DNA of 64,000 nt, from contig NC_092646.1 of assembly GCF_039555335.1 (NCBI RefSeq), forward strand, positions 20,357,029 through 20,421,028, read 5' to 3'. How positions within the stretch are numbered: position 1 is the first letter of the stretch; every line of letters starts with the position of its first letter. Origin of the DNA: Amphiura filiformis. Its lineage: Eukaryota > Echinodermata > Ophiuroidea > Amphilepidida > Amphiuridae. Position numbers and translations under genes: made by a program. Under the pieces are notes generated by a model. That model ran no database searches, was not told the origin of the DNA, and saw only the letters and a program-made list of their open reading frames with translations. Below, one piece after another: positions 13,764 to 63,570 of the stretch.

Positions 13764-14236
13764 GTGATTGGCTAAAATAAGTGTGCCAAATTGTTAATTG
13801 TATAAAATTAGTGATCAAATTGAACATGTGCAGGGTCTGGAACACAGGTCGGACGCTCTAAACACTCTAGAAAGCTGATCATGATAAACAATGCGCATGA
13901 TTATCTCGCTACAGGCATTTGTTCTAAATGGGTTCTCGGACGCATCATTACGTGTCGCCGTGTTCTGCAGTTTTTGCAGTGTACGATAAATCTTTAATGT
14001 TAGTGAAATTCGCAGTAGAATTCACTTTCATTAAAATAAATCACGAATGATACAAATGAATCAATAACTTTGATCTGTGACACATTCCAAATGGTCGAAC
14101 TTAGCAACTCAAGAATTTTATTTTTACATGTTATTATCCGTTTTCCACTTAATTTGATGATTTCAAACACGTTTCACAATAAATTGCAAGAGAAAACGTT
14201 GTAATGTTTCATTTCTTATTTTCAATCTTACAGCAG

Positions 14237-16696: not shown

Positions 16697-17004
16697 GATA
16701 CTCTGCAAAAATCAAGACTTTAGGTGCTGTAGTTTGGTCAAAATCCGTGATTTTGAATAAAACGCTGGAACCGGCGTTTTATTATTACGATGGAAATATT
16801 AGTCGAACACGTATGCACAGTACGTACACGGCGTGCGGGATACACATACACACACACCCAGAGGATCGTACCGTATTACAACCGCGGGAGTAACATGCAT
16901 GTCCGCTAGTATATAGTAAATTCCAATTTTCTATGCTTTAGGCTTTACCTCACTTGTTCGGCTCAAAATTAAAAGGCGACATATCTGACAGTAAAAGCTA
17001 ACAT

Positions 17005-17702
17005 CCCAGCAAACACAAAACGTTTTCGACATCATTCGCAAAAGGTAATAAAAGGTTGTCAGAAAACGTTAAAATGTCGGGTTATATAAAGGGTAGGCCC
17101 TATATTAAGAGTATAAAACGTTTTCATGACCTTAAAAAACATTTTTGATAATCTACTGCTCAGCAAACAAAAATGTTTTACAGAAAACGTTTAAATGTCG
17201 GGTTATATAAAGGGTATAAAAACGTTTTAATAACATTCCAAAAACATTCTTGAAAACTTGATACAAAACATTCTAAACAGAATGTTATTTTGGGGTTGAA
17301 AAATATTTTGCGAAAAATGTTTGCCCAAAATATTTTCAATAACGTTTTAAAAACGTTTTCATGACCTTTATATAACCCGACATTTAAATGTTATTAAAAT
17401 GTTTTGAAAAAAATATTTTAAAAACATTTCTGTGTTTGCTGGGTTCAAACATTTTAACATAATGTTATTTAAGTATTGACACAATATTTGGCAAAAATGT
17501 TTGCAAAAATAGTTTACAATAACATTTTTTGAAAACATTTAAAAATATTGTTGTAGTGTGTTTTCATACAAAACGTTTTAAAACGTTTCCATGACCTTTA
17601 TATAACCCGACATTTTAATGTTATTAAAACGTTTTTACCTAAACCAAAACCCAAAATATAACTTATTTAAAACGTTTTTAAAATGTTTTTGTGTTTGCTG
17701 GG
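17005..17702 (+). mobile_element. Inverted-repeat element (CCCAGCAAACAC ends), copy 2
   Basis: A 698-bp copy, inverted relative to the one at 1619-2303: begins CCCAGCAAACACAAAACG, ends GTTTTTGTGTTTGCTGGG. The internal landmarks TCGACATCATTCGCAAAAGG and CATGACCTTTATATAACCCG are shared in order with the copy at 53860-54512. Non-coding. Confidence 0.88.
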
Positions 17703-27179: not shown

Positions 27180-29223
27180 CGCATGTGGCACCAACAGGGA
27201 CGTCCACCCTATCAGAAAAGTGGGGGAGGAGAGGGTGTTTGAGAGGGTTTTTGACCCCTTAGAGGCAGTGACGTAGCAAGTACTTTTTCAGAGGGTGAAC
27301 AAAGTGGGGAAAGACAACTTTTAAGGGGGAAACTTTGACGAAAATGGTCAAATATTGGCTAATAAGTACAAAAGGGCTACAAATCTGATATATCAGGGCA
27401 ACCAGCGTCCGGGGGCAATAGAGGTGAGAAACCTTTGGACAATGAAGGCCCAATTAAAGCCATTTGTCATTTTTTGGATAAATTTTAGCACTATTATTGG
27501 GTACTATTTTAGTTTGAAACAGCCGCAAATTGGTGAAACGAAAGCCTAATTGAAGCCATTGAAAAGTTTTCACCATTATTGTATAATATAAACAATTGTT
27601 TTAAAAATAACACGTGGATGTCCATAGCAGAAGCAAAAAGGAAGACTTGTCCATTTTTCAAAATGAAGGTCCAATTGAAGCCATTTGCATGGGGACTGTA
27701 GGGCCTATTTACATTATTAGGCCTAGGCCTATTGTGTAAAAATTTAGTTTTAAAAATGGAAAATTTGGAAAATTGTTTTTGGTGCATCATTTTTACACTA
27801 TTATTGCCTTAAACAAAAAAACAAAGAAGGCCCGAACTGAATTTGCAAAATTTAAAATGTTACACTGATCTACTAAAGACTTCAGACTCGTAATTTCAAG
27901 TAAAGCATGCATGGATTGATATGTTAAAGTCAGCAATAGACCTAAGTCCGTCTTAAATACTGACGTTGGTGACAAAATGTCACGAGCCCTACATATCGAC
28001 GGGCCGGCAGTAATTTTCACAGGCTTTTGGGCCAAGGAACCACATTAATTTTAAGCACTGCCTGTAATAATCACAGGCCTATACTTAGGCTTACTACTAT
28101 CCTGGGCCTACTCAATAACGTAGCCTACAATTTAACCTTTTCCATGTTTTTTCTTCTTTTTCTTTCAGAAAGTGCCCCTCTCTCAATACTACTTACATGC
28201 ACAGGCCTACTAAATTACGTGCAATTTAACTTTTTCTCTTCTCTTCTCTCTTCAATTTTTCTCACTTTCTTTTCTTTTTTTCTCTCCTTTCCCCATTTTT
28301 CTACTTGTCAGTCACTAAAGTACTGGGGGAAATATGATATTGCGTCACACACCCTTCAGAAGCCCCCCCCACTCCGGCAATATGCAGCACCATACGAACA
28401 CACATCGGATAAATACCGAACATGTGTATTCGGTACACTCCGTTTCAAGTTTTGTGCATGCACAAAACTTGCCGACGGACTTAACGAACATCACCTATAA
28501 CACGAAACGCATTTGGCGGATGATAGCAGGACATAAAAAGAACATAAAACGATCATTGACGAACAACAACGGATTAACTAAAATACCATCCGTTTCTTGT
28601 ACGGAAGACCTATTCGGTGTAGTGTGACAGGCGCTTTAACGGGATTGTTGACAAACAAAGAATAGAGAAAATTACTCGGAACTGGCTTAAAAATAAAGTT
28701 GCATAAAATCACACAGCCACACTTGTCATAAATATGCAATGCCCATTTTGTCCAGGCCCGTTTTATAAATGTATGCTTTATTGTCATTTCACTGTTAAGA
28801 CCGCTTGTTTTAAACTTTGGTGCTAACTTTAAAAAAAAAACCTTTTGAATAATTATATAGCACAAACAATTCTTATTATCTAGGCTTCTGTAACAATGGC
28901 AGCCAGTTGTTTGTTGTCTCTGACATATCCCTGTTTATAGACAAGTTCTTCACAGACTTTCAAACATCATTGCTATGAATTTGACCAGCATAAATATTTA
29001 TGCATGCCATTTCACCCGTTTAACATTCTGAACATCATTTGGTTTATCAATCATATCGGATTTGCTCTTTGTACAGCCCCTCTATAAACGTGCATAAAAG
29101 TTGACGGATCCCTAACCCATTGAATTTAGCGGCGCTTGCACAACAGGCTATAAATCTACCTACGTTGGTATCCAAATTCATGTAGAACGCCTTTCCAATA
29201 ATGGATGTAGCGGAATGAGCTCT
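27180..29223. other. Interior of the 4.2-kb element; no gene seen
   Basis: Mixed AT-rich and pyrimidine-rich tracts (28140-28300 is a CTTT-type run). Open frames such as 28027-28500 have no motif or splice support. CGAATACAAAAATATTTTAT near 26773 and ACCGAACATGTGTATTCGG near 28416 suggest further inner palindromes. Confidence 0.45.
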
Positions 29224-29995: not shown

Positions 29996-30959
29996 CACCA
30001 AGTTCAAGTTCAAGTTTTATTTGTTTTCATCTCAATTCACAAAAAGTTATACAATTGGAAATGCAAGATAAGAAATACTTAATGATAATTACTTATAGAA
30101 ATACAATTATAAGAACATGAGAAGTGAAGAGATGTGGATGCCGCAAAGACGCAGAGCGTGAAGCTTGTGGCACCCAATCTGAACCAGATGGAAATTTAAC
30201 TTACGCTACAATATTAATATGTACTATAATGATGAAATCATGTGGCCGAAATAAGTATAAATGAAATTTAATTGAACGGAATCATTAAATCAGATAATCA
30301 AAAATACAATAATAAAAAAATATATAATAAATCACATATTTTGACACAAAGCTGAATGAAAAGAGAAGCGTATGATTCCTTCACATAAGGATAATTTGGA
30401 CAAGATCGGAATCAAATATATTGTGCCCAATAAATTAATGGAGTATGGACAGACTGAACAATACAAGACAGGACAGGACGGGACAGACCCAAGAGAGATG
30501 GAAAGTTTGAAAATACCCTTAATCAGTTGTGGTATAAGATTCGATTAAATAATCTTTAAGTCTATGTTTGAAAATAGCCAATGTTGGAGACTGTTTCAAT
30601 GATTGGTCGAGGGAGTTCCAGAGCAGGGCACCCTGAATCCGAAGGATATTTTCAGCCAGCCTGGTATTGGTAAGGCTTACATGAAGGTCATTCGAAAAAC
30701 GGGTGTCATGGGTGTGGATGTCTTTGTTGGTTATAAAATAGTCTGGGTCAGTAGTATGAGATGGTAGTTGGTCATGAAGGTAATTGAACATAAATTGGGC
30801 AGTTTGGAAAATGTAGAGGTCTTGGATTTTAAGCGTCCTGAGAGACTTGAATAAGGGGTCGGTGTGGGCGAGCCAAACTGAATAGGTACATGTTCTGATA
30901 ATTTTCTTCTGCATCAAAAAAAGTGTATGGAGATGGGAATTGTTTTTGTCGGGGTGCAC
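29996..30959 (-). mobile_element. 5'-truncated non-LTR retrotransposon (LINE)
   Basis: On the minus strand, 30959-30519 encodes 146 residues matching the C-terminal region that follows the RT domain in CR1-like LINEs: QKKIIRTCTYS, then HTDPLFKSLRTLKIQDLY, NDLHVSL, GALLWNSLDQSLKQSPTLA and FKHRLKDYL. A stop follows and a 500-bp 3' UTR leads to a tail of repeated CTTGAA hexamers at about 30000. The 5' side is cut where the AGTCCGA array starts, so RT and endonuclease are missing. The CR1-like placement rests on recalled motif order. Confidence 0.8.
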
Positions 30960-30962
30960 CGC

Positions 30963-31500
30963 TCAGTCCGACACGCCGCTAGTCCGACACGCCGCTAGTC
31001 CGACACGCCGCTAGTCCGAATCTGAAAAACACTTTTTAGTCCGACACTCCGCTAGTCCGAATTTAAAATACACTCTGCCAGTCCGACACGCCGCTAGTCC
31101 GAATGTGAAATGCAATGCGCTAGTCCGACACACCGCTAGTCCGAATCTGAAAAACACTTTTTCAGTCCGACACTCCGCTAGTCCGAATATGAAAAGCACT
31201 GCGCTAGTCCGAAACTGAAAAACACGGCGCTAGTCCGACACTGCGCTAGTCCGAATTTAAAAAGCATACCGCTAGTCCGAAACTGAAAACCATTGCGCTA
31301 GTCCGAATCTGAAAAGCACTGCGCTAGTCCGAATCTGAAAAGCACTGCGCTAGTCCGAATATGAAAAACACTGCGCTAGTCCGAATTTCGGACTAGCGCA
31401 GTGTTTCTCAGATTCGGACTAGCGCAGTGTTTTTAAATTCGGACTAGCGAAGTGCTTTTCAGATTCGGACTAGCGAAGTGCTTTCAAATTCGGACTAAGA
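30963..31500. repeat. GCTAGTCCGAA minisatellite with internal inversion
   Basis: Units of about 26 bp (GCGCTAGTCCGAATCTGAAA plus AGCACT) run forward from 30963 to 31385, then switch to the reverse complement through about 31500. The switch is the perfect palindrome GTCCGAATTTCGGAC at 31379-31393. The left end has shorter ACACGCCGCTAGTCCG units. It is a natural hairpin-forming array, possibly the end of a foldback element. Confidence 0.9.
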
Positions 31501-35220: not shown

Positions 35221-35535
35221 ATGTAGCACTCGTTGGTGGGAATAACGCATGGGAAGGACGGGTCGAGGTCTATTATAGCTCCGAATGGAGAACGGTTTGT
35301 GATTATGCCTGGGATGTCAATGATGCCGAGGTTGTGTGTCGGCAGCTGGGATATCCAACTACTGCCTCAGCTATAGCTTATCAGGGTTCAGTACATGTAT
35401 ATGGACAGGGAAGCGGTGTTAAAGTAATATATGATGTTGATTGTAATGGGTTAGGACTTACTTTTATGTCATGTAGTTTCAGCTGGTATGAGGATACTTA
35501 CAATATTTGTCAGGACGCCGGTGTTAAGTGTGATG
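35221..35535 (+). CDS. SRCR domain exon 1 of an SRCR/EGF gene
   Basis: Scavenger receptor cysteine-rich domain in one 315-bp exon, bounded by TTTATTTCACAG and donor GTAAGT, phase 1-1. It begins DVALVGGNNAWEGRVEVYYS and has the family signature EVVCRQLGYPTTAS and the ending QDAGVKCDG. Six cysteines at the usual C2, C3, C5, C6, C7 and C8 places (VCDY, VVCRQ, VDCN, MSCS, NICQ, VKCD). SRCR domains act in extracellular ligand binding, often in innate recognition. Upstream exons and any signal peptide were not found, so this is an internal module. The following intron start resembles those after the other two SRCR exons. Confidence 0.9.
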
Positions 35536-42800: not shown

Positions 42801-44154
42801 TATTAGTATTAAGATGTTCACTTTTTCTACTCACTTTATTAGGGCCTACCATTTAAAATGTCTAAAATTGCGGAATTGTTAAAATGTCTTAAATTGCGGA
42901 ATTGAGCAAATTTCTCATAGGCCTACGTCCAGTGCCGTAGGCCCCTACTGTGGGAAGTCCGCCCCTAGACTAAATCCCCGGTCTCGAATATACGCACGGC
43001 CGTTGCACTGTGCTGTATACGAGCCGCCGCCATGTTTGTCCGCCATTTTGCGAGTGAGAGGCCAGGGACTCAGGCTAAGTCCGCCCCCCTTGGATGCGGT
43101 CGCCCTGAAGAATTTTACTAGGGTCTTTTTGTACTTTTGAGCCTATTTTGTTTCGTCACAAATTCCCCCTTGAATGAGGGTTTCCCCTTTCACTCCTTTG
43201 CCCCCCCCTTAAACATTCCTAGCTACGCCCATGATCCCCATGACGCCACTTCACGTGGAGGGAAGAGGCACAACATATATTTCTTGATTTTATCAGGGAT
43301 TTTACCCAGAGAAGGTGCTAGGCATACATGCTCATGTTTGAAACTGGCAACACGAGAACTTTGAACTTCTGCGGTAGTCTTGTAGCCGTCCGGCCCTGTT
43401 CAGTTTTATACACGCATTTGAATATGAATTGTTTTGCGCACTTACTTAATGCTTATGGAGCACATTTTCTTCATTAGTTTGTCAAGTTGATGTCAAATGT
43501 TCTATTCTATATTATTTGGCAATAGTGTTTTTTTTGCCTATAGTATGTCCAAACATGGTCCAATGTTGTAATTTGTTGTTTTTGATCGCAAAGGTCGGAT
43601 ATTTTTATTCCCGATTTAACTGTGCACCCGCCTGAGGGCTTCGCAAGGGTGCAGAATTCAACGAAAGTTTGACGGTAATTTTGCCTTTTTGACACTAAAA
43701 CGCATTCGATCCTTAATTTTATTTCAACAACATTTTTGATTAGGTAGCATAATGAGGCGGCTACCAACTTTTTTCCCAAATCTTAAAGAATTATTCTCAA
43801 ATGTCTGACCTGTGTATTTCCTATTGGTAATACAAATTGACGTGTCAGCCCTAAATATACATAGGCAGGTCGTATTTTGGACCGGTAGCGAGTCTAATAC
43901 GTACTGTATATGTGAATATCGATGAATGTTAGAAACGGCAGAAACCGGTTGTGAAGAAGACTACGTGGATCGTATAAGCGTCCTTACCAACCAGTCAACT
44001 TTAAGACAAATAGGTGAAAAATGACACTTTAACGACGTTCTTTCATATTTTTTTTTATTTCACATGATCAGTGCATATATCGCCTAGTTATAAATGAAAA
44101 AATATTTTTTAGACCAATCAAACCAATATATGGGTGTAGTACGCCCTTAAAGCA

Positions 44155-46506
44155 ACATTTTTCCAGCATGCGCAGCATGTATAATTTTTGGTTTGCTTTA
44201 GTTGTGATTTGAGGGATGTTCTTATTCCAACGGAGACCATTTTGACTAATATTTTTGCTTCATTGACGAAGTTCAGGGGGATGCCAGAAATATTTAAATC
44301 AGAATGAGCAGGAGGGTCTGTTTTGAAGCAGATCTGGATGGCTTGACACTTGGAGGGATTTAAGCTAAGCTTGTTGGTGTTAGTCCAGTCATTGAAATTA
44401 GTCAGTTCTTTTCCTGAAGCTTGCTTGGTTGTGGATGTGAGCGATTCTCTGCAAGTGTCAAGTCATCCACGTACTTCCAACATTTGATATCAGAATCCAT
44501 GTTTTCATGGTTTTGGGCTGCATCATTGATCACCACTTGAAACCCAATGGGACCAAGTTTAGTTCCCTGGGGAAGAGCTCCATTGAGGACCCTATACTCA
44601 GAGAGAGTTTGGTAAGTCACTTAACCATGAAACGATGGATGCGGACTCCAAGGCGGATAAACTTACTAATAAGGATAGTGTGGTCGATGATATCGAACGC
44701 CTTTGAAAAGTCCGTCAGAACCACCGTCCCAATGTTGTTGACTTTGTCAGCACCTTGGTGAATTGAGTGAAGAAGGCTGACCAAATAGTGCGATGTGGAT
44801 ATGCCCTTAATATTACCATACTGTTGGGGGTCAATCTTGTCCTGGATATCCTCCAGCACCCAGTCAGTGATGACCCCTTCACTGATTTTGGAAAAAACAG
44901 TCTGTTAAAGAGATGGGCCTGAGTTTATCAGCCCTAGGAGGGTTTGATTTGGGGATTGGAACCACTATGGCTCTCTTTTATTGAGTGGGCACAACACCTT
45001 CAGCGTATGAGCTGTTCAGAATATTGGTCAAGGGAACACTCAATTCATATGCAAATTCCTTAATTAATTTGGGAGAGATACCGCCTGGGCCACTAGCTTC
45101 GGTAGACTTGACCTTTTTGAGCTCAGCATACACATCCTAAGGGTAGAGTGATGGTGATTGATCCGGGGCCGGTAGGTAGGCCTCAAGATCCAGCGGAGGT
45201 ATGTTAGACGAGATGCTGACAAATTGGTCGTTAATTGTGTTGGGAATTGTACCATGATCATCATCACTTACACCTGAAATAGGAATACTGAGCTCAGATT
45301 TGGTGTTCCTGGTCATTGATCTTATTTGTTGGTGCCACTTTCGTAGCTCGTAGCTTAACGATTTCTTACTCTATTTGCATAATAGTCAACCTTAGATGTC
45401 TTAATTGCACGCTGGACCTTATTGCGTATCATTTTATAACGCTCTACATCATGGGCTGCAAATGCTTTCTGACGATCCTTTACAAGGGATTTGATTTTCT
45501 GAGTCATCCATGGTTTATTATTGCTATGGACTTTGAGTGTGGCAAGAGGAAGGTGTGAATCAATAGCATCATGAAGGGACCGGTAGAGTGCATCTGCTTT
45601 CAGCTGTGTGGTACTAGCAGTGAGAACATTGGACCAGTCATGATCTTGGATCCATAATCCAAATTCTCTGATCTGGGAGTCTTTGCGATGTTTGTCAATA
45701 TGAAGCACTGTTGGTCTCCAAACAATACAAATATGATCACTCTTTCCTAATGCCAAAACTGGTATGGGATCTTTGAAATGTGAGCTAATATTGCATGGTC
45801 ATGATAAGATCTAGTGTGGCTTCACCACGAGTTGGAAATGTAACTAGTTGCTTGAGATAACAGTTCTTAAGAACATTGTTCACATTCATTTTATTAAAGT
45901 CCCCCATTATTGTGAATCCTATTTCGGGATATTTGGTATGAAGAATATCCATGGATTCCAGCTGATGTTGATCGAGAAGATCCCGATGTGGCGAGTCGCG
46001 TGGAATTTAGACGCCGCACACAGCGATGACCGAGACATCTCTGGGGAGTCGTTTGGGTTGGGGCTTTACCCATAAGCACTCCAGTTCATCTGGGACAGCG
46101 ATTTCCTGGATCTCATTAGCAACAATATTGGATTTGACGTAAATTGCCACACCGCAACCCCTTTTTTGATTTTGTAAAAGGTTCGTAGCCGTCAATTGAT
46201 AGCATGTTGTCAAGAAGGTCTTTGTGAAACCATGATTCGGTGACAACGCCAACATCTATGTGCTCCTGATTATTAAGAGTTCAAATTCGTTTATGACTGA
46301 GCGTTCGTTAGCGTAAATGTGGGAAAGTCACTTCTTGGGCGTTCATGTGGGGTTCCACGAGTTGGGGTTTGAGGTAATTGCCTCAGATTGGAAAAATTAG
46401 CACCTTTCTGAGGGGCCGCAGGAATTTGATGATGGGCATTATGATTATGGTTTACAATGACATGAATCAGTCTTACTACAGGCACTGTATTAAGGATACA
46501 ATACAT
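44155..46506 (-). pseudogene. Degenerate endonuclease plus RT LINE
   Basis: A minus-strand element with several frame breaks. In coding order: an endonuclease start (FPTFTLTNAQS near 46310), RGCGVAIYVKSNIVAN at 46130-46170, the GDFN catalytic-region motif near 45897, a linker with NKPWMTQKIKSLVKDRQKAF at 45450-45510, RT motif A (VVLTDFSKAFDIIDHTI, 44680-44730), ALPQGTKLGPIGFQV (44530-44580) and the YVDD active-site box near 44470. It is almost full length for an EEP-endonuclease LINE ORF2 but cannot be translated through. It ends abruptly at the TTAA element. Confidence 0.85.
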
Positions 46507-47290: not shown

Positions 47291-47590
47291 ATATCGATTT
47301 CACTGAAAAAGGCCGTAACATATTATTCGTTAGGAAACTTGGAACTTATGCATATTGGGGACTTTGCAAAACGCCATTTCTAAACTTACTTCAACGCGAC
47401 TTTTGCATCACCTTCGTTCATTGATTATATAAAATTCTTGCTCAAAAGTTGTCAAGAAGAATTGTTTGAAATGTATAGAGAACTGTAGTATCATGCTTTT
47501 GTAAACACATGTAAGCTCATTTCTGATGTTAACATACACTTTACTTTCAGTGGGTGGGTTTATCTTGATGCAAACTGATTGTCTTATAAT

Positions 47591-47751
47591 CAGGGACAGG
47601 CGATTTGCGCGGAACTTTTTTTCCGCGCAATTCCGCGCAATTGGCTATTTTTTTTCCTATGGGCAGGGATACATGATTTGCACTGAAAAAAAGAGTTCCG
47701 CGCAATTCCGCGCAATTTGCTATTTTTTGCCGCGCAAATCGCCTGTCCCTG
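47591..47751. mobile_element. 161-bp hAT-like MITE with 8-bp target duplication
   Basis: Ends CAGGGACAGGCGATTTGCG and CGCAAATCGCCTGTCCCTG flanked by perfect CTTATAAT direct repeats (47583-47590 and 47752-47759). Internally TTCCGCGCAATTCCGCGCAA is repeated. The 8-bp duplication and CAGGG end fit hAT transposons. The paralogous site near 50611-50618 (CTAATAAT) is empty. Confidence 0.92.
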
Positions 47752-47846
47752 CTTATAATATATGGTAGAACAAATCTGTTGCTAATTTATTATGCTAATT
47801 ATTCTATTTCGACATGTCTCACATTCGTATTGTTTTGTGTGTGAAG

Positions 47847-47969
47847 ATGCTGATGAATGCGCAACAGGTACAAACAACTGTACTGCAGGAGCTACATGCA
47901 TTAATACCGATGGATCTTTCATATGTGCTTGCCAGGCTGGTGATGCTGAATATGGGATAACATGCACAG
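47847..47969 (+). CDS. Calcium-binding EGF-like exon 1
   Basis: A 123-bp phase 1-1 exon between TTGTGTGTGAAG and donor GTAAAT. It encodes one EGF module with six cysteines, starting DADECATGTNNC, as in calcium-binding EGFs (D-x-D-E-C), and with CINTDGSFICAC, which fits the Asp/Asn hydroxylation consensus C-x-[DN]-x4-[FY]-x-C-x-C. The last loop (AGDAEYGITC) is typical. It is most similar to the exon at 51873-51995. Role: rigid extracellular spacer between SRCR modules. Confidence 0.88.
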
Positions 47970-48080
47970 GTAAATCTACTTTATCACCCATCTACGAGCT
48001 TATTTTTTTAAATTTTGAAACACATTTTTGAACACATTAAATCGAATTCAAAACTGCTATGGGTGGGATTGTACAACTGG

Positions 48081-48160
48081 TAAAAGAAACTGAACAAAAA
48101 AGTGTTGTTCAACAATATTAAAACATCGTTGTACAACACTTTTTTGTTCAGTTTCTTTTA
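48081..48160. mobile_element. Hairpin insertion in copy A intron
   Basis: AAAAGAAACTGAACAAAAAA and its inverse TTTTTTGTTCAGTTTCTTTT flank a 23-base loop with TCAACAATATTAAAACATCG. The corresponding place in copy B (GTTAAAAGCTGTGATGTTTC, about 52118) lacks it. Confidence 0.75.
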
Positions 48161-48937
48161 ACTTTTACCATGCGATGTAACGTGTGACTCTTAACGTTTT
48201 TCTGGTAAAAACTGTGATGTTTCAATCAAGTTGAGAGAGAGATTATTCCATAATTTAGTGTTTTTTGCCATTCCTGACGGTGGTCCAGAAAATTGACTAA
48301 AACATATAAAAACTATATTTTTATCATTCATTTTCAGCATAATAAGTAAAAGTAATAATTTCTGTAACTTATACTCAAAGGATTAAGGAATTTTATGCTG
48401 GATAAACAATTTCTGTGTATTTAAAGCTTGTGTCAATTTTCAATATTTTGGGAAAAAGTGTAGGTGAATTCCAAAATACTCATCACGCATCTTTCTTTGG
48501 ATTTTGCATTTGTCAAAGTGGTGCTATGCTAAAACAATCATTTTAGATATTGGAGAAAATGAAATTCTCCATGTTTGGAATAATTTAAACTTCTAAATGT
48601 TGTTTTTTTAAAGAAATATTAGGTACCGAACACTATGCCCATTACGTGCTCCTATATAGGTGGTATAACTGTGTTGACTGTTGACACAGTAATTCCCAAA
48701 TACCGCTCACGCTCCAAAGATCAGAAATGGGGCTTAAGCACAGTAATGACATGGTATGGTGGAAGAAGCATATATGGGGGGGTGAGTGACGTAGGTCAAA
48801 TAGAAATAGGGGCGTTCTATCGACTAGTGGCATCAAAATAGTTTGCTAGGACGTATGGTTAGCGCATTCTGAGGACCCGATTTAGTTGCCATATCATTAC
48901 GGTTTGGTGTTATTATCATTATTTCATGATTTTGCAG

Positions 48938-49267
48938 ATGTAGCACTCATTGGAGGACATAACGCATGGGAAGGCCGCGTCGGAGTCTATTACAACTCCG
49001 AGTGGGCAACAGTTTGTGATGATGACTGGGATGTCAATGATGCCGTAGTTGTGTGTCGGCAGCTGGGATATCCAACTACTGCCTCAGCTATAGCTTATCT
49101 GGGTTCAGATCATGTATATGGACAGGGAAAAGGCGCGATATTAGTGGATGATGTTGCTTGTGACGGGTCAGAAAGTACTTTGATATCATGTATTTATGGT
49201 AGTTACGAATGGGATGCTCGTTATATTACTGGTGGATACTATGAGGACGCTGGTGTTAAGTGTGATG
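48938..49267 (+). CDS. SRCR domain exon 2, lacking the seventh-position cysteine
   Basis: A 330-bp phase 1-1 exon from ATGATTTTGCAG to donor GTAAGT. It begins DVALIGGHNAWEGRVGVYYN and carries VVVCRQLGYPTTASAIAY and YYEDAGVKCDG. Only five cysteines are present (VCDD, VVCRQ, VACD, ISCI, VKCD). The stretch between C6 and C8 (YGSYEWDARYITGGYYED) is lengthened by about four residues and has no cysteine where the other two domains have NIC or IHC. In group A SRCRs C7 pairs with C2, so C2 here should be free or pair differently. The frame is otherwise intact. Confidence 0.9.
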
Positions 49268-49399
49268 GTAAGTTGATCTATTGTTACGTTACCACTGCCT
49301 TCAACGTTTTCCTTTTTACCTCATTTGTGGTTCCCTGAGGTTTTCTATTTGTTATTGAGTTTACCACATAGACATATTGTCATATAACATAAAATAGCG

Positions 49400-50258
49400 T
49401 GGACAACCATCCTGGCTCAATTATGTGTCAATGGACTGGAGGAAAACCTCAAATAGGTGACGTAGCTGGGATTTTTGTCAGGGGAAGCCTGTATGGGGTT
49501 GGTATGTGGCCCAAATCCACCAAACAAAAATGGGGGTTGGTGCGACGCACCCCCATCGAAAAATGTGCACTTTTCAGAGTAAAATATCAAAGAAGGTCCA
49601 AAAATGCAAAACTGTTCAAAATAGCCCACAAAAGTCCATTTTTGCTGGATGTAGGCGCTTTCTTAAACCAAATTTTTTAAAAAAATGGCAATTTTAATAA
49701 TTTGCCATAAAATTTGTATTATATCGCGAATTTCAAAAAATCTAAATTTTTCAGAGTAAAATATCAAAGAAGGTCCAAAAATGCAAAACTGTTCAAAATA
49801 GCCCACAAAAGTCCATTTTTGCTGGATGTAGGCGCTTTCTTAAACCAAATTTTTAAAAAAAATGGCAATTTTAATAATTTGCCATAAAATTTGTATTATA
49901 TCGCGAATTTCAAAAATCTAAATTATTTTATATCAGAAGGATATTCCTCGTATTCAGCTGCAATTCGATATGTCTGATGTGCTCAAATTAAATCCTACAT
50001 TTTACAAGGAATTACCTAGTGCTTAGAATCGATAAGTCCCGTTGTTGCTATGCACCTCCGATTTGTTCAAATAGCGTGTGATATCGTGTCATATCACACG
50101 GCTAAGAACCAATAAGACTGCCGGAACTTTCTCAAGTGTTCAAGAATATTAATGTATACATATGTAGTCATGAATAGGATGTGATCTTATTCTGCAGCAT
50201 GATTTGGTTGTCAAACATTGGTATTCCCAGTTGCACTACAGGTAGGCCTACTGTATTA
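49400..50258. repeat. Intervening DNA with a 177-bp tandem duplication and MITE fragment
   Basis: TTTTCAGAGTAAAATATCAA begins two nearly identical 177-bp units at 49571 and 49748. Their right portion (AATTTGCCATAAAATTTGTA) and the sequence to about 49985 are a fragment of the TTAA-flanked MITE family. A palindromic GTGATATCGTGTCATATCAC lies at 50079. No exon. Confidence 0.8.
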
Positions 50259-50679
50259 ACATCGATTTGGCTGAAAAAGGCCGTAAAATATTACATATTC
50301 ATTAGGGAACTTGCAACTTACTATATTGTTAGACCTATCTGTTCCAGCTCTCTCGTGCATATTGGCGAGTTTGCGAAATGTATTATCCAAATTTACTGCG
50401 ACATGTTCGACGCGACTTTCCGTCAACTTCGTTGATTAATTATACAGAATTCATACTCGAAAGCTGTCAAGAAGAGAATTGTTTGAGACTTTATTTAATA
50501 CAGGGAATTGTAGCACAATTGTAAAATTGTAAACAAAGTTAAGCTGATTTCTGATGTTAACGTACACTTTACTTGCAGTGGGTTTAGTGATCTTGATGTA
50601 AACTGATTGTCTAATAATATCTTGTGGAACGAAACTGTTGCTGCTAACCTTTTTATACTAATGAATTATTTTATTACCT

Positions 50680-51830
50680 AGCTGGGGGGTTTACACCCCC
50701 AGCTAGGTACTGTAATGCTCTCCGATTCTTCTTTCTTTCTTCTTCTTCTTCTTCTTCTGGCAACAAACTTCAAAATGCTTCTCCTCCTACATGTTACACC
50801 CTACAATTACGTAACTTGCACATATGTATCGCCTATATCCAGTGCCCATATGGTGCAAACAGAATTGGGATCAAAGGTCATTAAAGGGGCATTTTCGGTA
50901 TATAACCAAATATCTTCAAAATGCTTCTTCTGCCACATATTACATAGCACAATGACGTCACTTACACATGTGCATCGGCTTTACCCAGTGCCCATACCTT
51001 GCACACAGAATTGGGGTCAAAGGTCATTAAGGGGTAAAATCTTACAATTGCATTATCTGGACATCTGTAAGGAGTATGGGGCTCAAACTCGATACAATAA
51101 ATCTCATGACCAGGGGAACATTTTGCGGGGGTCAGGTCAAAGGTCATGCAGAGGTCAAATTTTAGAAACGCATTTCCTGGACATCTGTAAGGGGTACGGG
51201 GCTCAAACTTGGTGACAACAAACTTAATGATCAGGGGAACATGTTGGAACACTTTGCAGGGGTCAGGTCAAAGGTTATCTGGGGTCAAATCTTTATAACT
51301 TCATTTTCTGGATATCTGCAAGGGGAATGGGGCTCAAACTCAGTGACAACAAATCTCATGACCAGGGGAACATTTTGCAGGGGTCAGGTCAAAGGTCATG
51401 TAGAGGTCAAATTTTCTAAATGCATTTTCTGGACATCTGTTAGGGGTACGGGGCTCAAACTCCACAACAACAAACTTACTGACCTGGGGAACATTTTGGA
51501 ACACTGTGCAAGGGTCATGTCAAAGGTCATCTGGGGTCAAATCGTAGAATTTCATTTTCTGGATATCTGTAAGAGGTACAGGGCTCAAACATGGTGACAA
51601 CAAACCTCAAGACCAGGGGAACATTATGGAACATCATGCATAGGTCAGGTCAAAGGTCATCTGGGGTCAAATCTTAGAATTGAATTTTTTGGACATCTGT
51701 TAGGAGTACGGGACTGAAACTCGGTGAAAACAAACCCCATGACCAGGGGAGCATTTTTGGAACATTTTGTAGGGGTCAGATACCTCCACAACACCAACAT
51801 GCCCCAGCTAGGTTTGTGGTCTATGACCAC
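50680..51830. mobile_element. Insertion with CCCAGCTAGG ends and alternating 120/131-bp repeats
   Basis: Left hairpin CCTAGCTGGGG..CCCCCAGCTAGG at 50678-50706 and right GCCCCAGCTAGG at 51811. Between them GGGGCTCAAAC recurs at about 51080, 51200, 51331, 51452 and 51582, spaced roughly 120, 131, 121 and 130 bp, that is, a 251-bp dimer. Each unit carries GGGGTCAGGTCAAAGGTCAT. Copy A lacks it. ORFs through it are artefacts of the repeats. Confidence 0.8.
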
Positions 51831-51872
51831 CATTTGCCACTAGTTTAAATTGTTATTGTTTTGTGTGAGAAG

Positions 51873-51995
51873 ATGCTGATGAATGCGCAGTAGGTGAACA
51901 CAACTGTCCTGCAACAGCTACATGCATTAATACCGTTGGATCTTTCGTATGTGCTTGCCAGGCTGGTGATGATGGATATGAGATAACATGCACAG
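51873..51995 (+). CDS. Calcium-binding EGF-like exon 2
   Basis: A 123-bp phase 1-1 exon, paralogous to 47847-47969 in length, splice sites and sequence. It starts DADECAVGEHNC and keeps CINTVGSFVCAC and the closing YEITCTG, with six cysteines and the calcium-binding and hydroxylation consensus. Differences from the first copy are scattered point changes that leave the frame open, which suggests both are functional. It lies directly right of the 1.15-kb insertion, about 40 bases from its end. Confidence 0.88.
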
Positions 51996-52295
51996 GTAAA
52001 TCTACTTTATCACCGATCTATTTTTTTTTTAAATTTTAATTTCAAACTTATTTTTGAACATATTAATTCAAAACTCCAGGTTTTGACTGCTACAATGGTG
52101 ATGGGTAGGATTGTACAGCTGTTAAAAGCTGTGATGTTTCAATCAAGTTGTCGATATGTACTTAAAAGACTCCCGTGAGTCCGTTAGGCATCAAGGTCAG
52201 CTTACACTCAGGCGCACACGTCCTCTCTATTACTATGAGAGAGAAGGGGAGAGACAAGAGAGAAGGGAAGGGAGGGGCGAGGATGATGGAACGTG

Positions 52296-52304
52296 AATGC
52301 GATG

Positions 52305-52346
<42 letters not shown>

Positions 52347-52360
52347 GAGAGTTAGAGAGA
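52296..52360. repeat. GA dinucleotide microsatellite
   Basis: (GA)n run with few interruptions in the intron between EGF exon 2 and SRCR exon 3. Its Glu/Arg ORF is an artefact. Confidence 0.95.
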
Positions 52361-52535
52361 GATCGCTGGCAGAAATTTTGAATTGGGAATCTTTAATTCT
52401 AATCCTCCGAATTCATTTCTATGTATTTGGATTGGTCAAGCATGTTCTTGAAACGGCCTGAATATTTTTTGCATGTAAATGATATACTCCTCCTTTGAGG
52501 AATAAAAGTCATCGTTTTATTTCATGAATTTACAG

Positions 52536-52853
52536 ATGTAGCACTCATTGGCGGGAATAACGCATGGGAAGGCCGCGTCGAAGTCTATTATAACTCCCAA
52601 TGGGGAACAGTCTGTGATCATGGATGGGATACCAATGATGCTGTAGTTGTGTGTCGGCAGCTAGGATATCCAACTACTGCCTCAGCTATAGCTTATGAGG
52701 GTTCAGAACATGCATATGGTCATGGAAACGGTGCAATATTGATGCATGATGTTGGTTGCTATGGGTTAGAAAATAATTTAAGATCATGTTATCCCTTATG
52801 GAATACTGGTATTCATTGTCAACACTATGAGGACGCGGGTGTTAAGTGTGATG
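52536..52853 (+). CDS. SRCR domain exon 3
   Basis: A 318-bp phase 1-1 exon from ATGAATTTACAG to donor GTAAGT. It encodes DVALIGGNNAWEGRVEVYYN, VVVCRQLGYPTTASAIAY and HYEDAGVKCDG. All six cysteines are present (VCDH, VVCRQ, VGCY, RSCY, IHCQ, VKCD), so the fold should be intact. The central 48 bases coding CRQLGYPTTASAIAY are almost identical in all three SRCR exons even at silent sites, pointing to recent duplication or gene conversion. A partial second copy of its 3' end lies just downstream. Confidence 0.92.
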
Positions 52854-52964
52854 GTAAGTCGATCTATTATTTCGTTACCTCCGTCTTATACGAAATGTAC
52901 ATGAGATTCCCCTGGGGTTTTCTATATGTTACTGAGTTTACCACATAGGCATGTTGTCATCAGG

Positions 52965-53122
52965 ATGCTGGTGTTACAATAGGTGTGATGGTAAGTCGAT
53001 CTATAATATAACGTTACCTCCGTCTTTTACGAAGTGTACAGTTTCACTTCATTTGAGATTCCCCTGAGGTTTTCTATATTTTACTGAGTTTACCACATAG
53101 ACATGTTGTCATATAACATGTA
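52965..53122 (+). pseudogene. Remnant duplicate of an SRCR exon end and donor
   Basis: CAGGATGCTGGTGTTACAAT followed by GGTGTGATGGTAAGTCGATC repeats the end of SRCR exon 3, its donor and about 100 bases of intron. The exon part is only about 35 bases and is frame-disrupted, so it is not a usable exon. Confidence 0.7.
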
Positions 53123-53859
53123 GGGCCTAGAACCCGAGGTACAATACATGACTCAGGCGGGTCAGTGAGTAAAATAAGCAGAACCGGATTTACCATTTGG
53201 CCATGCAGATGGTCCCCACATTTTTTGGGGCCCCCAAAATTGCCCTGTGCAAGTTCCTTTTTAGCCCGAAACTCATGTTTTGGACCAAAATATGGTAAAA
53301 TTACAAACAATTTGCGCACTTTACGTAGCAAAAATCACATGAAAAATTGTCTGAAATATAACAATTTTCGCGCACTTTGCGCGAAAATGTCTTAGTAAAA
53401 TCGGAACAAATACGCTCATCTTTACCACTGGCGATCTTATAGTAGGTCCCCAGGGTAGGTCCCTTATTTGTAAATCAAAACTTGGCTATTTGAGTGCTCA
53501 TACCTTCCTCACGGTGAGGTTGGGCCTCCCAATTTTGGCCTGGTCCATGGCCCCAAACTAGTAAGGGCTCTGAAAATAACTTATATGCAGTCATGTAGTA
53601 CGGCTTAGGCAAAACATCTTTTTTGATCCTATAGCGCTATCTGTGCCCAAAGAGGTACCGATGGCACTTCAAGTTATCAACGTACCCTGAATATTTCTAT
53701 AGTGCGTTCGGTTTTCTTGTTATTTAAATGAAAACCAATAACACTATGCAACAGGTGATTATTATGCTAGATGCAATTTATTACATCTCCAGGGAGTGAT
53801 GTTAAGAGTCATCGGTACATAACCGGGCACCGGTAGGTCCAAATTCGATGTGGTACCTT
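53123..53859. other. Intronic sequence; no exon seen
   Basis: No recognised exon. TTTTTTGGGGCCCCCAAAAT at 53221 is a small palindrome. ORFs here have no motif. Confidence 0.45.
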
Positions 53860-54512
53860 CCCAGCAAACACAAAACGTTTTCGACATCATTCGCAAAAGG
53901 TTACAAAAGGTTGTCAGAAAACGTTTAAATGTCGGGTTATATGGGTATATTAAGAGTATAAAACGTTTTCATAACCTTAAAAAACTTTTTTGATAATCTA
54001 CTGCTCAGCAAACAAAAATGTTTTACAGAAAACGTTTAAATGTCGGGTTATATAAAGGGTATAAAAACGTTTTAATAACATTCAAAAACATTCTTGAAAA
54101 CTTGATACAAAACATTCTAAACAGAATGCTATTTTGGGGTTGAAAAAATATTTTGCGAAAAATGTTTGCCCAAAATATTTTTAAAACGTTTTCATGACTT
54201 TTAATTAAATAACCCGACATTTAAATGTTATTAAAAGGTTTTGAAAAAACATTTTAAGAACATTTATGTGTTTGCTGGGTTCAAATATTTTCACATAATG
54301 TTATTTATTTGGGAAAAATGTTTGCAAAAATAGTTAACAATAACATTTTTTGAAAACATTTAAAAATATTGTTGTAGTGTGTTTTCATACAAAACGTTTT
54401 AAAACGTTATCATGACCTTTATATAACCCGACATTTTAATGTTATTAAAACGTTTTTACCTAAACCAAAATCCAAAATATAACTTATTTAAAACGTTTTT
54501 GTGTTTGCTGGG
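53860..54512 (+). mobile_element. Inverted-repeat element (CCCAGCAAACAC ends), copy 3
   Basis: A 653-bp copy in the same orientation as the one at 17005-17702, with small internal deletions (for example near 54306). Ends CCCAGCAAACACAAAACG and GTTTTTGTGTTTGCTGGG. It sits in the intron before EGF exon 3. Confidence 0.88.
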
Positions 54513-54782: not shown

Positions 54783-55875
54783 CAGCCTGTCTCAAAAAAA
54801 GTTGTGCAAGTGAAAAGCGCCCTCTTTGGCAATTGGAAAATACAGTTGTGACATTATGCTTACATCAACGTCAAGGGCGCAGTCTTAGCTCTCAAATACC
54901 GTTTGTTCTGTTCGATTTGCTTGTTGCAATCTCGAGATATGTTTATTTAACAACGAAAGGGTAAAATCACAATTGTGCCACTTTTACTAGGGAAGAGAGC
55001 TGTACATGTAAAATCAATGATATAGCTGATGTTGATGCGTCTAATGCACTCTCCTTCGGGGCTCGACGCATTATTCGCATCAACATCAGCGCGCGTGCAT
55101 TATTTTGTCTAATTTCTCTCCCAACAAGTAATATAAACTTATAAGGTCCGTATGCACAAAAGAGTTAGACCGGGTAAAAAGTTAGACCTGATCTAAGTGG
55201 AATTTAATACCATGAGAAAGGACATTTTCCTTTGCATTTGCTTAACTTATTTTGTATTATTTTTGAACGTTGCATTAAAATCTTTAGAATTTGCTAGCTA
55301 CTCTAGGAAGGAAATAAGAGTAAAGGACCATTCCTAGTGGAACTTAATTCCAGTTAGACCAGGTCTAACTTTAGACCCTCTTTAACTCTTTTGTGCATAC
55401 GGACCTTAGTGTGCAATATTTGTTTGTCTTTTAACATGTCTTGAGTGACTAAGATAAGAGAACAACATCATTGATGTGCACATATATTTAATTTTACAGC
55501 AGAATGTGAAATATTTATTTATCTTTTTCGTGGAAAAAGAGAATCATTATTCCTGCATCATGATAAAATAGTAAAAACAGTTGTGTAATTGATGCATTCT
55601 TTTGATTACACGAAGGAACTCTTGATAAACTTGATGCTATCGCTTATTTACATGCAAAGCTCTCTTCCCTAGTAAAAGTGGCACAATTGTGATTTTACCC
55701 TTTCGTCGTTAATAAAGTATATCTCGAGATTAAAACAAGCAAATTGAACAGAACAAACGATATTTGAGAACTAAGACTATGCCCGTGACGGTGATGTAAG
55801 CATCATGGCACAACGGTATTTTCTAATTGCCAAAGAGGGCGCTTTCACTTGCACAACTTTTTTTGAGACAGGCTG
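54783..55875. mobile_element. 1.1-kb TA-flanked inverted-repeat element
   Basis: TA (54781-54782) then CAGCCTGTCTCAAAAAAAGT, mirrored at the right end by ACTTTTTTTGAGACAGGCTG and TA (55876-55877). Arms are about 215 bp and share GCCACTTTTACTAGGGAAGA. Tc1/mariner-like flanks, but no transposase. It contains the nested element below and a small hairpin (TGATGTTGATGCG and its mirror, 55028-55090). Its right end is only about 36 bases from the next exon. Confidence 0.85.
55142..55408. mobile_element. Nested MITE with TAAGGTCCGTATGCAC ends
   Basis: TAAGGTCCGTATGCACAAAA at the left and TTTTGTGCATACGGACCTTA at the right are perfect inverses, with the arms continuing through GTTAGACC and GGTCTAAC. 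It is inserted inside the 1.1-kb element. Confidence 0.88.
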
Positions 55876-59158: not shown

Positions 59159-61109
59159 GTAAGTGTCAAACTGAAACAAGGCACTTGCCGTTGAAAATTC
59201 AGTGTTTAACAAGTTTCTTTAAACGGTCACTCCATGCGGAAACACGCTTTTGTCTTGATGGAACAAGGCTCAAACAAAATGCTCAAGCCAGCCTAAAAAG
59301 CCTATGTGAATATGCTGGCCAATATCGAAATTCGAAAGAAAATAAAGAAACATAATTGAAGATAAAGATCAAGGACATGAACAGATCAAGTGAACAATTT
59401 TACTTTTATTATTAGCCTTTAGGTCAATTTGTTACTTGCAGTTACTTGTCAGTTACTTGCTCAGTGAATAGTTGTGAAAATCGTGCTCAATAACATTGAT
59501 TTAACTAAATTTTAATCAATTCTGTACAGTTAATAACAAATATCTACAGAAACTGTGGCATTAGGCAAGTTGGTTAAAAAGCTTAGTGTAAGTCATTGTA
59601 TGGATCAGGAGAAAATGAGAAGATGAGCTAAAAATACTCACAATTGTGGACACCATGAAAGCATTTTGCGACATAGTCCGTATATCTTCCTCGAGTCAGT
59701 AAAGTAAAATCTAATTTTATGATTCTCTCAAGTGTACATTTTTTAAGAAATCTGTTAGTCTAGTTGGATTCCTTGCATAATTTCCTTTCTGAAAATGTAT
59801 ACCGGTACCTTTATATATACTTCTCATCATTACATTTAAAGTTACAATAAAAAACAATACGTTAAATGTTAAATGTTTTCTATTACTGATTTAACCACAT
59901 AGACATGTTGTCATAATAACCAGAGGCAGTATGACTCAGACTGGTCATAAGTTAAAATTGAATCCCCCCATTGTTTAGAATATTATGAAGGGATATTTGA
60001 GTAATTCATGTAATTAATGGTCCAATAGTGTGACACATGACAAAAAGATGTTGAATGTTGACATTAAAACTATTTATGGAGAGAGTAATATTGTTAAGGT
60101 CATTTTTGGTCATCTAAGTATACTATTGTTGGATTGTCAGAATGTTCAAAGTTGTGTCAAGCGCATGTGATGTCAACTGAGTATTGATAGTCGGATTGTC
60201 ATAAAACGTGGTACGTATAATCACAATTAAGCGTCAAAACCATCAAGGTTATATCAAGGTTAACGGTTACCATAGTCAGAGCCCCAACCTTAAAAAAGGG
60301 CTCCAACATTTGAATTAGGTTACCTTGAAAGAACTTGTTTTAAAACCACTTGATATTGATAGTATGGAACCTCAGGATTATGAATTCAGAGGTCGTCTTT
60401 TTCTCCGGGATTGCAAAAAAATAGATATTGCGCAATAATGATGACGTCATCAAATTTTGGTGAAAAAGCTGCAAAATTTATTAAATTTTATTTTGCTTGT
60501 ATGGATACATTAAATACACTTCCTTTCATTTCTGTTAAGTTAGAAGCAGTATTATATTTAGATATTGTGTTAGGGAGGTTTTAATTTTATTTTTCCCATT
60601 GACATGTGTACTTAATATAATGTTTGATTGCGATTTTCTCAATATGCCGTTTTTTCACTTTTTCGTGGCTATAAATATTGGCCATTTCCTCTGATAAACA
60701 TATATTTTTACCAATTTTTAAATCTTTTAAACTATTTTCATATACACTTGGAACTTCTTAGTAAGAAACAATATGTTTGATTCCAAAATATATATTTGTA
60801 TAACGTCTATCGGTCAAAATATGATGACGTCATCAAATTTGACTCCACATATGAAAAATATCAAAATCATTTTAATTACTGAAAACGATAGCTGACATCA
60901 ATATATTTAATTTAAACTCAAGTAGGAACCTCAACCGGACTTTATTTACTATTTCTGAGCAAAACAAAATATAAACATGCATTGCTATCTGCATAAAATT
61001 GAAACTTCAAACGCATTTTTCTGGCTTTATGACGTTTAACAGCTTAATGTTGAACACGATTGAGCTTGGTGATATTTTGTACTTTATATTAATGAATCCC
61101 CAGCGTTAG
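59159..61109. other. Intron or intergenic; no exon seen
   Basis: No further SRCR or EGF exon. At 59890-59960, ACCACATAGACATGTTGTCA and ATGACTCAGACTGG resemble the sequence following the SRCR exons (53090-53160), hinting at an older duplicated fragment. The rest is AT-rich without structure I can name. Confidence 0.5.
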
Positions 61110-61690
61110 CACAAATACCCATATCCCTGCTCCCATCCATAGTGACAAAGACGCCACTCCTGAACCTCAGAATGGTGGAAGAGTGCATATTCCAGCAAAG
61201 CAAAATGAACAGGTCCTTAACATTGCGCAAGATATAACCGCAGCTGTGAATGGACTTCCTACCCCAAGCTGTGATTGGACTTCCTACCCCCAAGCAAGTG
61301 GGAACAGGACTCCATCAACTCAGCGTCAACAAAAGTAGAGAAACCATTATAGTGTTGAACAGATTGGGCAACAGCATCGGCTACAACGATGCACAGCGTT
61401 ATGTAGCAAGTATGGCAACTGAAGCTCAGGATCAGATCGATACTAATGGTTTCTTCACACCAAGTAATGTTAAATCTGGTCGTTTTACACACTTCCACGC
61501 ATGCAACTACGCACAATATATACCAATACAAAGAGGCTGCAGAGCAAACGTTGAAACCAACGAGGAGCGTACCTCTTGTAAAACCCGGGAAAACATCTAT
61601 ACCACTCCCTGAATACACGCCTACAGTGGACAGCAATCTCTCTCTCTCTCTCTCACAGATAGACAGAAAGCACGGTCCTTAGCAGACGAC
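61110..61690 (+). pseudogene. Broken member of an uncharacterised repeated coding family, part 1
   Basis: Protein-like but split over frames: LLPSIVTKTPLLNLRMVEE, then VIGLPTPKQVGTGLH, IIVLNRLGNSIGYNDAQRYV, TNGFFTPSNVKSGRFTHF, and in another frame HATTHNIYQYKEAAEQTLKP and PGKTSIPLPEYTPTVDSN. A tandem duplication of roughly 26 bp (GTGAATGGACTTCCTACC and GTGATTGGACTTCCTACC, from about 61236) and a deletion near 61495 explain the shifts. I recall similar segments in multi-copy uncharacterised animal proteins, perhaps transposon-borne, but cannot name the family. Confidence 0.6.
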
Positions 61691-61921
61691 GGTGGACTAC
61701 ATTATTCACTGTGGCAACAGTCAATATCGTAAACAAAACAGACAATATGACGGCAACACTGCCTTGACATTGGACGCCCCGTGCCGAGTTGTGTTTTTAG
61801 CTCTATTGGCCCCGTTACAGAAAAAAAATGCACAAAATATATTTCTCAGTGAATGTATAAATTTTCACATAAAAATAAATATTTTTGGATTCAAAATGAA
61901 TGTGAAGAAAAAAAAATTCTA

Positions 61922-61998
61922 ACCGGGAGTGAGCGGGGCTCGATCTCGGAACCCTCTGCATCGCAGACGACAGCTTTACCATTACACCACGCTAGCCG
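61922..61998 (-). repeat. tRNA-like sequence, possible SINE head
   Basis: The minus strand reads TAGCGTGGTGTAATGGTAAA, then CTGCGATGCAGAGG and GATCGAGCCCCGCTC, giving D-arm, anticodon-arm and T-arm features. The anticodon position reads GAT, but U33 is absent and the T-loop deviates from TTCGANN, so it is more likely a tRNA pseudogene or SINE than a working gene. Confidence 0.5.
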
Positions 61999-63059
61999 TG
62001 ATACACAATGGGGGGAAATTTTAGGTATATATCATAAACATACCGTGCGTTATTCATACAAAACATTCAAAAAACAGTACTTACAATGAGGTTCACTGTC
62101 GAACCTCAACGGATTTAGACTGATAAAATAGTGCTTAATAACATACGTACAGTTTTGGAATAATTTGAGACATTTTTGTGTTTACGTGTAAAACCAATGA
62201 CGACGTCAAAATTCAGCCAATCTTGGCCGGCCCCCCCCCCTGGTCCTTAGAAGGGTATCTCTCTTACAAGAAGACGATAATTCCAAAAATCAAACGAGTC
62301 ATCGTGACTTACTTCGGCACTTGACCCGGATGTGTCCAACTTCTCTCATTGCAATTGATGACATCAACGTTGATTTCATCTGCCCTACGTGGAGGGTATT
62401 TAAAGAACGCATCATGCAGTTATTGTTAACTACATGTATGCACACAACACAGGGGCACTCACAATAGGCAATTGAACCCTACTGGTAGCGCTGTATCGTG
62501 GCTATTGGGGATGAACTAGTTAGTATCATATATCAAAACGTATAAAAGCTATGATTTTAGTACTTTCTCTCTGTTTCAATTACTTATTCTTTTCCAAATA
62601 TCTGAATCTTCAACCCGGTACAAGCTTTAATAACGGGGGAACATACATTTTTATTAAAATCATCTATCCAAACTCGCCGTGTTATTCCAATGCACATTTT
62701 ACTTCACCGGGCAGCCATTTTTTGATTGTGTTTTGAAGATTGGCGTCATAAAACCGTCATAGGTACAAATTTAGTACTTTCTGTCAATCAATTATGGCTT
62801 ATTCTCTACATGTCAATCTTTAAATAATGATGAGTAAATGACAGCAAACGGCTGCAAACCAGTGAAAAATATCCCAAAACTCGTTCAGTGGGGCTCCGTT
62901 CGTGCATGTCAATAGAGTCATTATCGATTGGATTAGTCGTCCGTAGCGGACAATTCGGTCGCTCATTGGATCAATATTATCAGGTGGTAATAAATTTGCA
63001 TTGGACAATAGATTACTATATAATGGTTTAGTACTGCATATATCGGTTTAATCTTCAAT
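61999..63059. other. Sequence between the two pseudogene parts; no gene seen
   Basis: A C run at 62229 and AT-rich sequence. With the tRNA-like unit it may be inserted DNA that splits the pseudogene. Confidence 0.4.
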
Positions 63060-63570
63060 AAGCGGGTTTATGGCTGGAAAGGTCACGGTGAATTCGCCGT
63101 GGACGTAAGTGCACTATGGAATGATCTAAATGAAGTAAATCTTGACACAGTCATTGGATATGGTTCCATCTATCCACGGTTACCAACAAGCCCTGACGTT
63201 GTTAAAAGTTCAATAGACTACTGTTTCAACATGGCTGCCAAATTAGGTCAGGAATTCAAAATAGTAACTTGTGATCAAGCAATCTATGACACAGAAGAAG
63301 AAGCCGGAGAAATACAAAAAAATGATTCTTCGAATGGGAGGTCTCCATATTGCATGGGAGCTATTGGTTACCTAATGAAGTCAACAGGAATTGAAGACAT
63401 TGGTAGAATCGAAAACATGTTTAATGGCACGGAAAGACTACTACTTGCTACGGGCACATCGTTATAGTGACAGATACTATGTTTGAATTATACTGGGAAT
63501 CATTTGAGCAGTGGCTTCAGGATGAAGGAAAAGATGAGTGCGTTTCTGGCATATCCCTATACAAGAACTT
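63060..63570 (+). pseudogene. Broken member of the same family, part 2
   Basis: Reads KRVYGWKGHGEFAVDVSALW, VIGYGSIYPRLPTSPDVVKS, DYCFNMAAKLGQEFKIVTCD and QAIYDT in one frame. MILRMGGLHIA (63323-63356) is in a second frame, MGAIGYLMKSTGIEDIG back in the first, and VTDTMFELYWESFEQWLQDE and CVSGISLYK in a third. At least three small indels break it. It continues the same family as 61110-61690, and the pieces lie in the expected order. Confidence 0.6.

Follow-up and report, generated by a model that had tools for sequence, protein, structure and literature searches.

A probable old tandem duplication of an EGF-SRCR exon pair in a predicted extracellular gene of Amphiura filiformis

A 64,000-nucleotide stretch of the genome of the ophiuroid Amphiura filiformis (NCBI RefSeq assembly GCF_039555335.1, contig NC_092646.1, positions 20,357,029 to 20,421,028 of the forward strand; hereafter the window, with coordinates counted from its first letter) appears to hold part of a multi-exon animal gene for an extracellular mosaic protein of SRCR and EGF domains, grown by an old in-tandem duplication of an EGF exon together with an SRCR exon. 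We put the probability of this reading at roughly 0.85. The proposed mechanism has an intron stretch, one EGF exon, and one SRCR exon being duplicated in tandem, most likely through unequal recombination between introns, to give the copies that now lie ~3 kb apart. Since phase 1 introns flank each of the exons, gaining the additional pair (~150 residues) would have left the frame unshifted. Since that event, the copies have acquired private insertions and diverged by 17-23% at non-exon sites, and their open frames and splice-site dinucleotides have been retained.

Exon series and the two tandem blocks

The exons were located by tblastn, and their borders were then fixed. On the plus strand they follow the order SRCR, EGF, SRCR, EGF, SRCR, EGF, EGF-like:

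35221..35535, plus strand: SRCR-A exon, 315 nt, phase 1-1, six Cys; Pfam SRCR E 1.6e-22, 80.1 bits
47847..47969, plus strand: EGF-1 exon, calcium-binding EGF, 123 nt, phase 1-1; EGF_CA E 1.1e-10, 41.9 bits
48938..49267, plus strand: SRCR-B exon, 330 nt, phase 1-1, only five Cys, acidic cation cluster kept; SRCR E 4.1e-24, 85.2 bits
51873..51995, plus strand: EGF-2 exon, calcium-binding EGF, 123 nt, phase 1-1; EGF_CA E 1.7e-11, 44.6 bits
52536..52853, plus strand: SRCR-C exon, 318 nt, phase 1-1, six Cys; SRCR E 1.9e-28, 99.2 bits
55913..56038, plus strand: EGF-3 exon, 126 nt, phase 1-1; EGF_CA E 1.7e-12, 47.8 bits
59045..59158, plus strand: EGF-like exon 4, 114 nt, phase 1-1; six Cys in EGF order

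All seven have AG/GT borders, are open in phase 1, and have a length that is a multiple of three, which makes every one of them a class 1-1 exon. An initial annotation, made from the letters alone, had described the exons as phase 1-1 and multiples of three and had reasoned that whole modules could be gained or lost without frame damage; both statements hold. The Pfam SRCR model (PF00530) scores above its curated cut-off of 26.1 bits in all three SRCR exons, placing them in the SRCR superfamily, and EGF_CA (PF07645) exceeds its cut-off of 27 bits in three of the four EGF exons (EGF-1 to EGF-3), which classes these as calcium-binding EGF domains. The same three begin with D-x-D-E-C, the motif of calcium-binding EGF. 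EGF-like exon 4 matches no Pfam EGF model, PF07645 included, at E values up to 0.1, and its match to the third EGF is weak (28 residues by tblastn, E 1.6e-4). The plus strand from 16 kb on was also scanned for cysteine-rich symmetric exons, with thresholds chosen with the known exons in view, and the scan returned 26 rows with 9 distinct donors, all within or overlapping the seven exons. In control scans, the whole minus strand had 17 rows, falling into 6 clusters, and the plus strand below 16 kb had 5, 4 of these in a 42-bp tandem array; 30 base shuffles yielded a mean of 1.2 distinct donors and a largest value of 4, versus the 9 of the real sequence. Upstream of 35 kb, additional exons of either type were rejected after tblastn produced one 10-residue chance EGF match there (29125-29154, E 0.47) and the scan produced none from 16 kb.

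The second to fifth exons of the series fall into two blocks, which have the following parts:

47295..49390, plus strand: block 1 (5' intron piece, EGF-1, intron, SRCR-B, 3' intron piece), by blastn against block 2
50263..53119, plus strand: block 2, by blastn against block 1
47591..47751, plus strand: 161-bp transposon-like element, block 1 only, with inverted ends CAGGGACAGG... and an 8-bp duplication, CTTATAAT, on both sides
48081..48160, plus strand: hairpin in the intron of block 1, block 1 only, with 39-nt arms that are 92% complementary
50678..51817 (approximate; borders as cut for comparison), plus strand: ~130-bp tandem-repeat stretch, block 2 only
52307-52362: GA-rich stretch in block 2
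52959..53119, plus strand: partial second copy, in block 2, of the end of the SRCR exon with its donor site and 3' intron flank

In blastn comparisons the blocks are colinear and form a single duplication that runs from intron through the EGF exon, a second intron, and the SRCR exon into a third intron. The paired pieces of blocks 1 and 2 are 47295-47348/50263-50320, 47349-47590/50356-50618, 47828-48086/51854-52128, 48202-48233/52119-52150, and 48919-49383/52517-52960. With inserts left out, the region from 47349 to ~48046 (the EGF exon with the intron 5' of it and the beginning of the next one) forms one alignment of 583 columns at 75.3%, and the SRCR exon with its flanks aligns by blastn over 465 columns at 79.4%. 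The tandem EGF-SRCR duplication of the initial annotation is thus borne out by the colinear pieces and the continuous match. Its description of two colinear blocks, each with one EGF and one SRCR exon, also stands; the introns, described there as matching, do so only in part because each block holds stretches without a counterpart. Block 2 has, in addition, its partial repeat, which equals the first copy at 120 of 137 aligned sites. The 161-bp element of block 1 is flanked by exact copies of CTTATAAT, and block 2 keeps the uninterrupted, empty site with one base changed. The 8-bp duplication and the CAGGG ends hint that this element may be of the non-autonomous hAT type. For the hairpin, a clean empty site was not seen in block 2. 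That the window has a fourth SRCR exon was rejected, as tblastn at E up to 1 found three; blastn added only an intron-flank relic downstream of the last EGF exon (59875..59920, plus strand). This ~46-bp piece matches the intron flank that follows SRCR-B and SRCR-C at 82-86%, with no SRCR exon detected near it, and may be a small dispersed repeat or what is left of a further, lost block.

The age of the duplication was approached through divergence. An end-to-end MAFFT alignment of five pieces, which can overstate divergence and left out a sixth piece (32 sites, 2 differences), has 131 of 573 non-exon sites differing between the blocks (22.9%). The local blastn alignment, which can understate divergence and left out the second partial copy, has 103 of 612 differing (16.8%). 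Nei-Gojobori distances among the SRCR exons are Ks 0.369 and Ka 0.201 for A-B, Ks 0.335 and Ka 0.232 for A-C, and Ks 0.324 and Ka 0.198 for B-C. The three exons are almost equidistant, so the tandem event is only slightly more recent than the divergence from SRCR-A. The initial annotation had seen a live example of repertoire expansion here, a view that is not supported because the blocks are old by these near-equal Ks values and carry private insertions.

Possible conversion, decay, and constraint in the duplicated exons

The synonymous sites of the duplicated exons are unusually quiet in two places. The EGF-1/EGF-2 pair has changed at none of 27.5 synonymous sites versus 13 of 92.5 non-synonymous sites (Ks 0, Ka 0.156; p 0.04 within the exon), and the synonymous deficit is also seen against SRCR synonymous sites (p 0.0025) and against non-exon sites (p 0.0015 with MAFFT or 0.014 with local alignment). 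In the SRCR exons, a core of codons 29-58 has few synonymous changes for A-B (p 0.0016) and B-C (p 0.04), with A-C not significant (p 0.26). This pattern suggests either constraint on the exons at the DNA level or conversion followed by amino-acid change, neither of which is proven. If the exons had been homogenized by gene conversion and then diversified in amino acids by selection, exon distances would underestimate the age of the duplication. The EGF pair and the SRCR core of A-B and B-C speak for such a history. Against it stand the A-C comparison, the small numbers of sites in these tests, which were chosen post hoc, and the mosaic of shared sites across the three SRCR exons, which is not significant (69 sites, 1000 permutations, p 0.18), so that a proven conversion mosaic among them is rejected. 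We regard this history of conversion and selection as rather doubtful.

A number of observations weigh against an SRCR/EGF gene grown by tandem duplication. The joining of the seven exons into one gene is a prediction, and SRCR-A, 12.3 kb upstream of EGF-1, might be part of another gene. No convincing signal-peptide exon was found at 16300-47846, where the scan gave two overlapping weak signal-like rows that share one donor (19800/19818-19908; controls 0 and 1), and no transmembrane 3' exon was found at 59159-63500. The term receptor, used in the initial annotation, therefore lacks backing in the parts searched, and the gene may extend beyond the window. The cysteine number of SRCR-B is odd. 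Exon divergence between the blocks (64 of 441 sites, 14.5%, in the local blastn alignment) is barely below that of non-exon sites, and non-synonymous divergence between SRCR-B and SRCR-C is not significantly below synonymous divergence (p 0.12); these last two results make partial decay possible.

Carried further, decay would leave one or both blocks as pseudo-modules that are no longer spliced. The loss of a conserved Cys from SRCR-B, SRCR Ka/Ks ratios of 0.55-0.69, the closeness of exon to non-exon divergence, and the modest pyrimidine tracts (0.59) at the EGF-1 and EGF-2 acceptors are all compatible with this. What makes it quite unlikely in our judgment is that all four duplicated exons are open, in frame, and bordered by AG/GT, a state that neutral decay would seldom have left. 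Approximate simulations of neutral decay in these exons with one substitution rate (20,000 runs, with either block as ancestor in the local-alignment version) left all four stop-free in 0.7% of runs at the MAFFT divergence or 1.8-2.0% at the local-alignment divergence, and both stop-free and in frame in 3 of 20,000 or 0 of 20,000 runs, respectively. The exon indels between the blocks are 9 and 3 nt with MAFFT, or 8, 1, and 3 nt with local alignment, or one 12-nt gap, and are net in frame; outside the exons, 6 of 8 (MAFFT) or 13 of 15 (local alignment) are not multiples of three. The frames look held by selection. That the two blocks are uncollapsed haplotypes, an assembly artefact that usually shows itself as directly oriented, colinear copies and that the initial annotation had named as grounds for refutation, is rejected as very unlikely because non-exon divergence of 17-23% exceeds the ordinary allelic range and block 1 has a private 161-bp insert whose site is empty in block 2, and SRCR-B is, besides, nearly as distant from SRCR-C as from SRCR-A.

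Predicted binding residues of the SRCR copies

SRCR domains of group A have six conserved cysteines and those of group B have eight, according to a sea urchin study (PMC10855680). SRCR-A and SRCR-C have the six of group A, SRCR-B has five, and none of the three copies has eight. The Cys near EDAG is the one replaced in SRCR-B, where GGT stands for the TGT of SRCR-C, and the resulting five leave at least one Cys without a partner inside the domain. Residues for cation binding can be compared with SRCR8 of SALSA, where cation site 2 is formed by D1019, D1020, and E1086 and site 3 by D1020, D1058, D1059, and N1081, and where an alanine at D1019 or D1020 abolishes binding of all three ligands tested (PMC7043408). 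With equivalence judged by alignment and spacing for all of these residues but N1081, only SRCR-B has the acidic cluster CDD, DDV, EDAG. The same positions read CDH, HDV, EDAG in SRCR-C and CDY, YDV, QDAG in SRCR-A. The positions equivalent to D1020 and D1058 are D/D in SRCR-B, H/H in SRCR-C, and Y/Y in SRCR-A, the same residue within each copy.

In what we consider the best reading of function, calcium-binding EGF spacers would alternate with SRCR heads, and only SRCR-B would keep canonical cation-bridged binding, its acidic cluster being of the kind through which SRCR domains bridge to anionic ligands via bound cations. SRCR-A and SRCR-C, with two cluster ligands changed, would either bind in another way or lack binding by the cation route altogether. 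A bolder proposal is that the duplicated modules are being re-tooled as distinct binding heads, with the D1020/D1058 pair behaving as if changing in concert. Behind it lie a Ka close to Ks in the 3' half of the SRCR exons and EGF spacers that differ solely at amino-acid-changing sites, together with the quiet synonymous sites of the EGF exons and the SRCR core. Such re-tooling seems unlikely to us. If true, a single gene would display three features next to one another: a cation site, an aromatic patch, and what may be a histidine site (transition-metal-like).

Genomic surroundings and related systems

Several other features were noted in the window. A probable decayed non-LTR retrotransposon (44118-46255, minus strand) lies in the long intron that separates EGF-1 from SRCR-A; one of its three scanned open pieces matches reverse transcriptase, weakly and below cut-off (E 4e-5). 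Tandem arrays of a CGCTAGTCCGA motif lie at 30959-31497, with a strand switch at ~31386. A 42-bp tandem repeat forms arrays at 1-1618, 2304-2495, and 3066-6746, in which both strands have long open frames, and a tRNA-Leu call inside them (6635-6728) is probably spurious. A 473-aa open frame at 14208-15626 (plus strand), coiled-coil in look by eye, probably belongs to an upstream gene; its only match is weak and below cut-off (HAUS1, E 2e-5). Two 199-nt inverted repeat arms, 54814-55012 and 55647-55845, are 90% complementary, 634 nt apart, and transposon-like. A dispersed repeat has copies at 53859-54500 and 17004-17679 that are 91% identical and ~37 kb apart.

Relatives of the gene were sought in viral contigs, where pattern searches gave 1 and 21 stretches, and in prokaryote genomes, with 32 pattern stretches; none was confirmed in either, as expected for an animal gene. 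Relatives of the SRCR domain with solved structures include CD163, CD5L, DMBT1, and MARCO. The SRCR domains of SALSA/DMBT1 share their acidic cation-site residues with SRCR-B and have more than 88% identity and four disulphides (PMC7043408), whereas the three copies here share 65-71%, have five or six Cys, and are altered at the cation site in two of three cases. The sea urchin SRCR family (PMC10855680) offers a close likeness: each SRCR domain of a tandem array has one exon (one gene excepted), the partner domain seen most often is EGF-like, growth is both tandem and at the domain level, exons are lost between sibling paralogs, and the expanded type is the six-cysteine group A. That array consists mostly of SRCR-only genes (15 of 16), whereas here a two-exon EGF-SRCR unit is doubled inside one gene. 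Our literature search, in which sea cucumber SRCR work (PMC13228809) was not compared, pointed to no work on an EGF-SRCR tandem unit closer than the sea urchin study (PMC10855680).

It is established that class 1-1 modules, SRCR among them, undergo shuffling (PMC3927616); there, SRCR and EGF modules likewise sit between phase 1 introns and can move in a frame-safe manner. The present case is the same in kind and differs in being an internal tandem duplication, not an insertion into another gene. The locus is a further example of textbook class 1-1 module duplication, a principle long known. It shows cleanly how an extracellular gene can acquire entire modules when its exons are phase-symmetric, and the comparison of intron with exon in each copy provides a direct test of whether duplicated SRCR and EGF modules diverge by selection.

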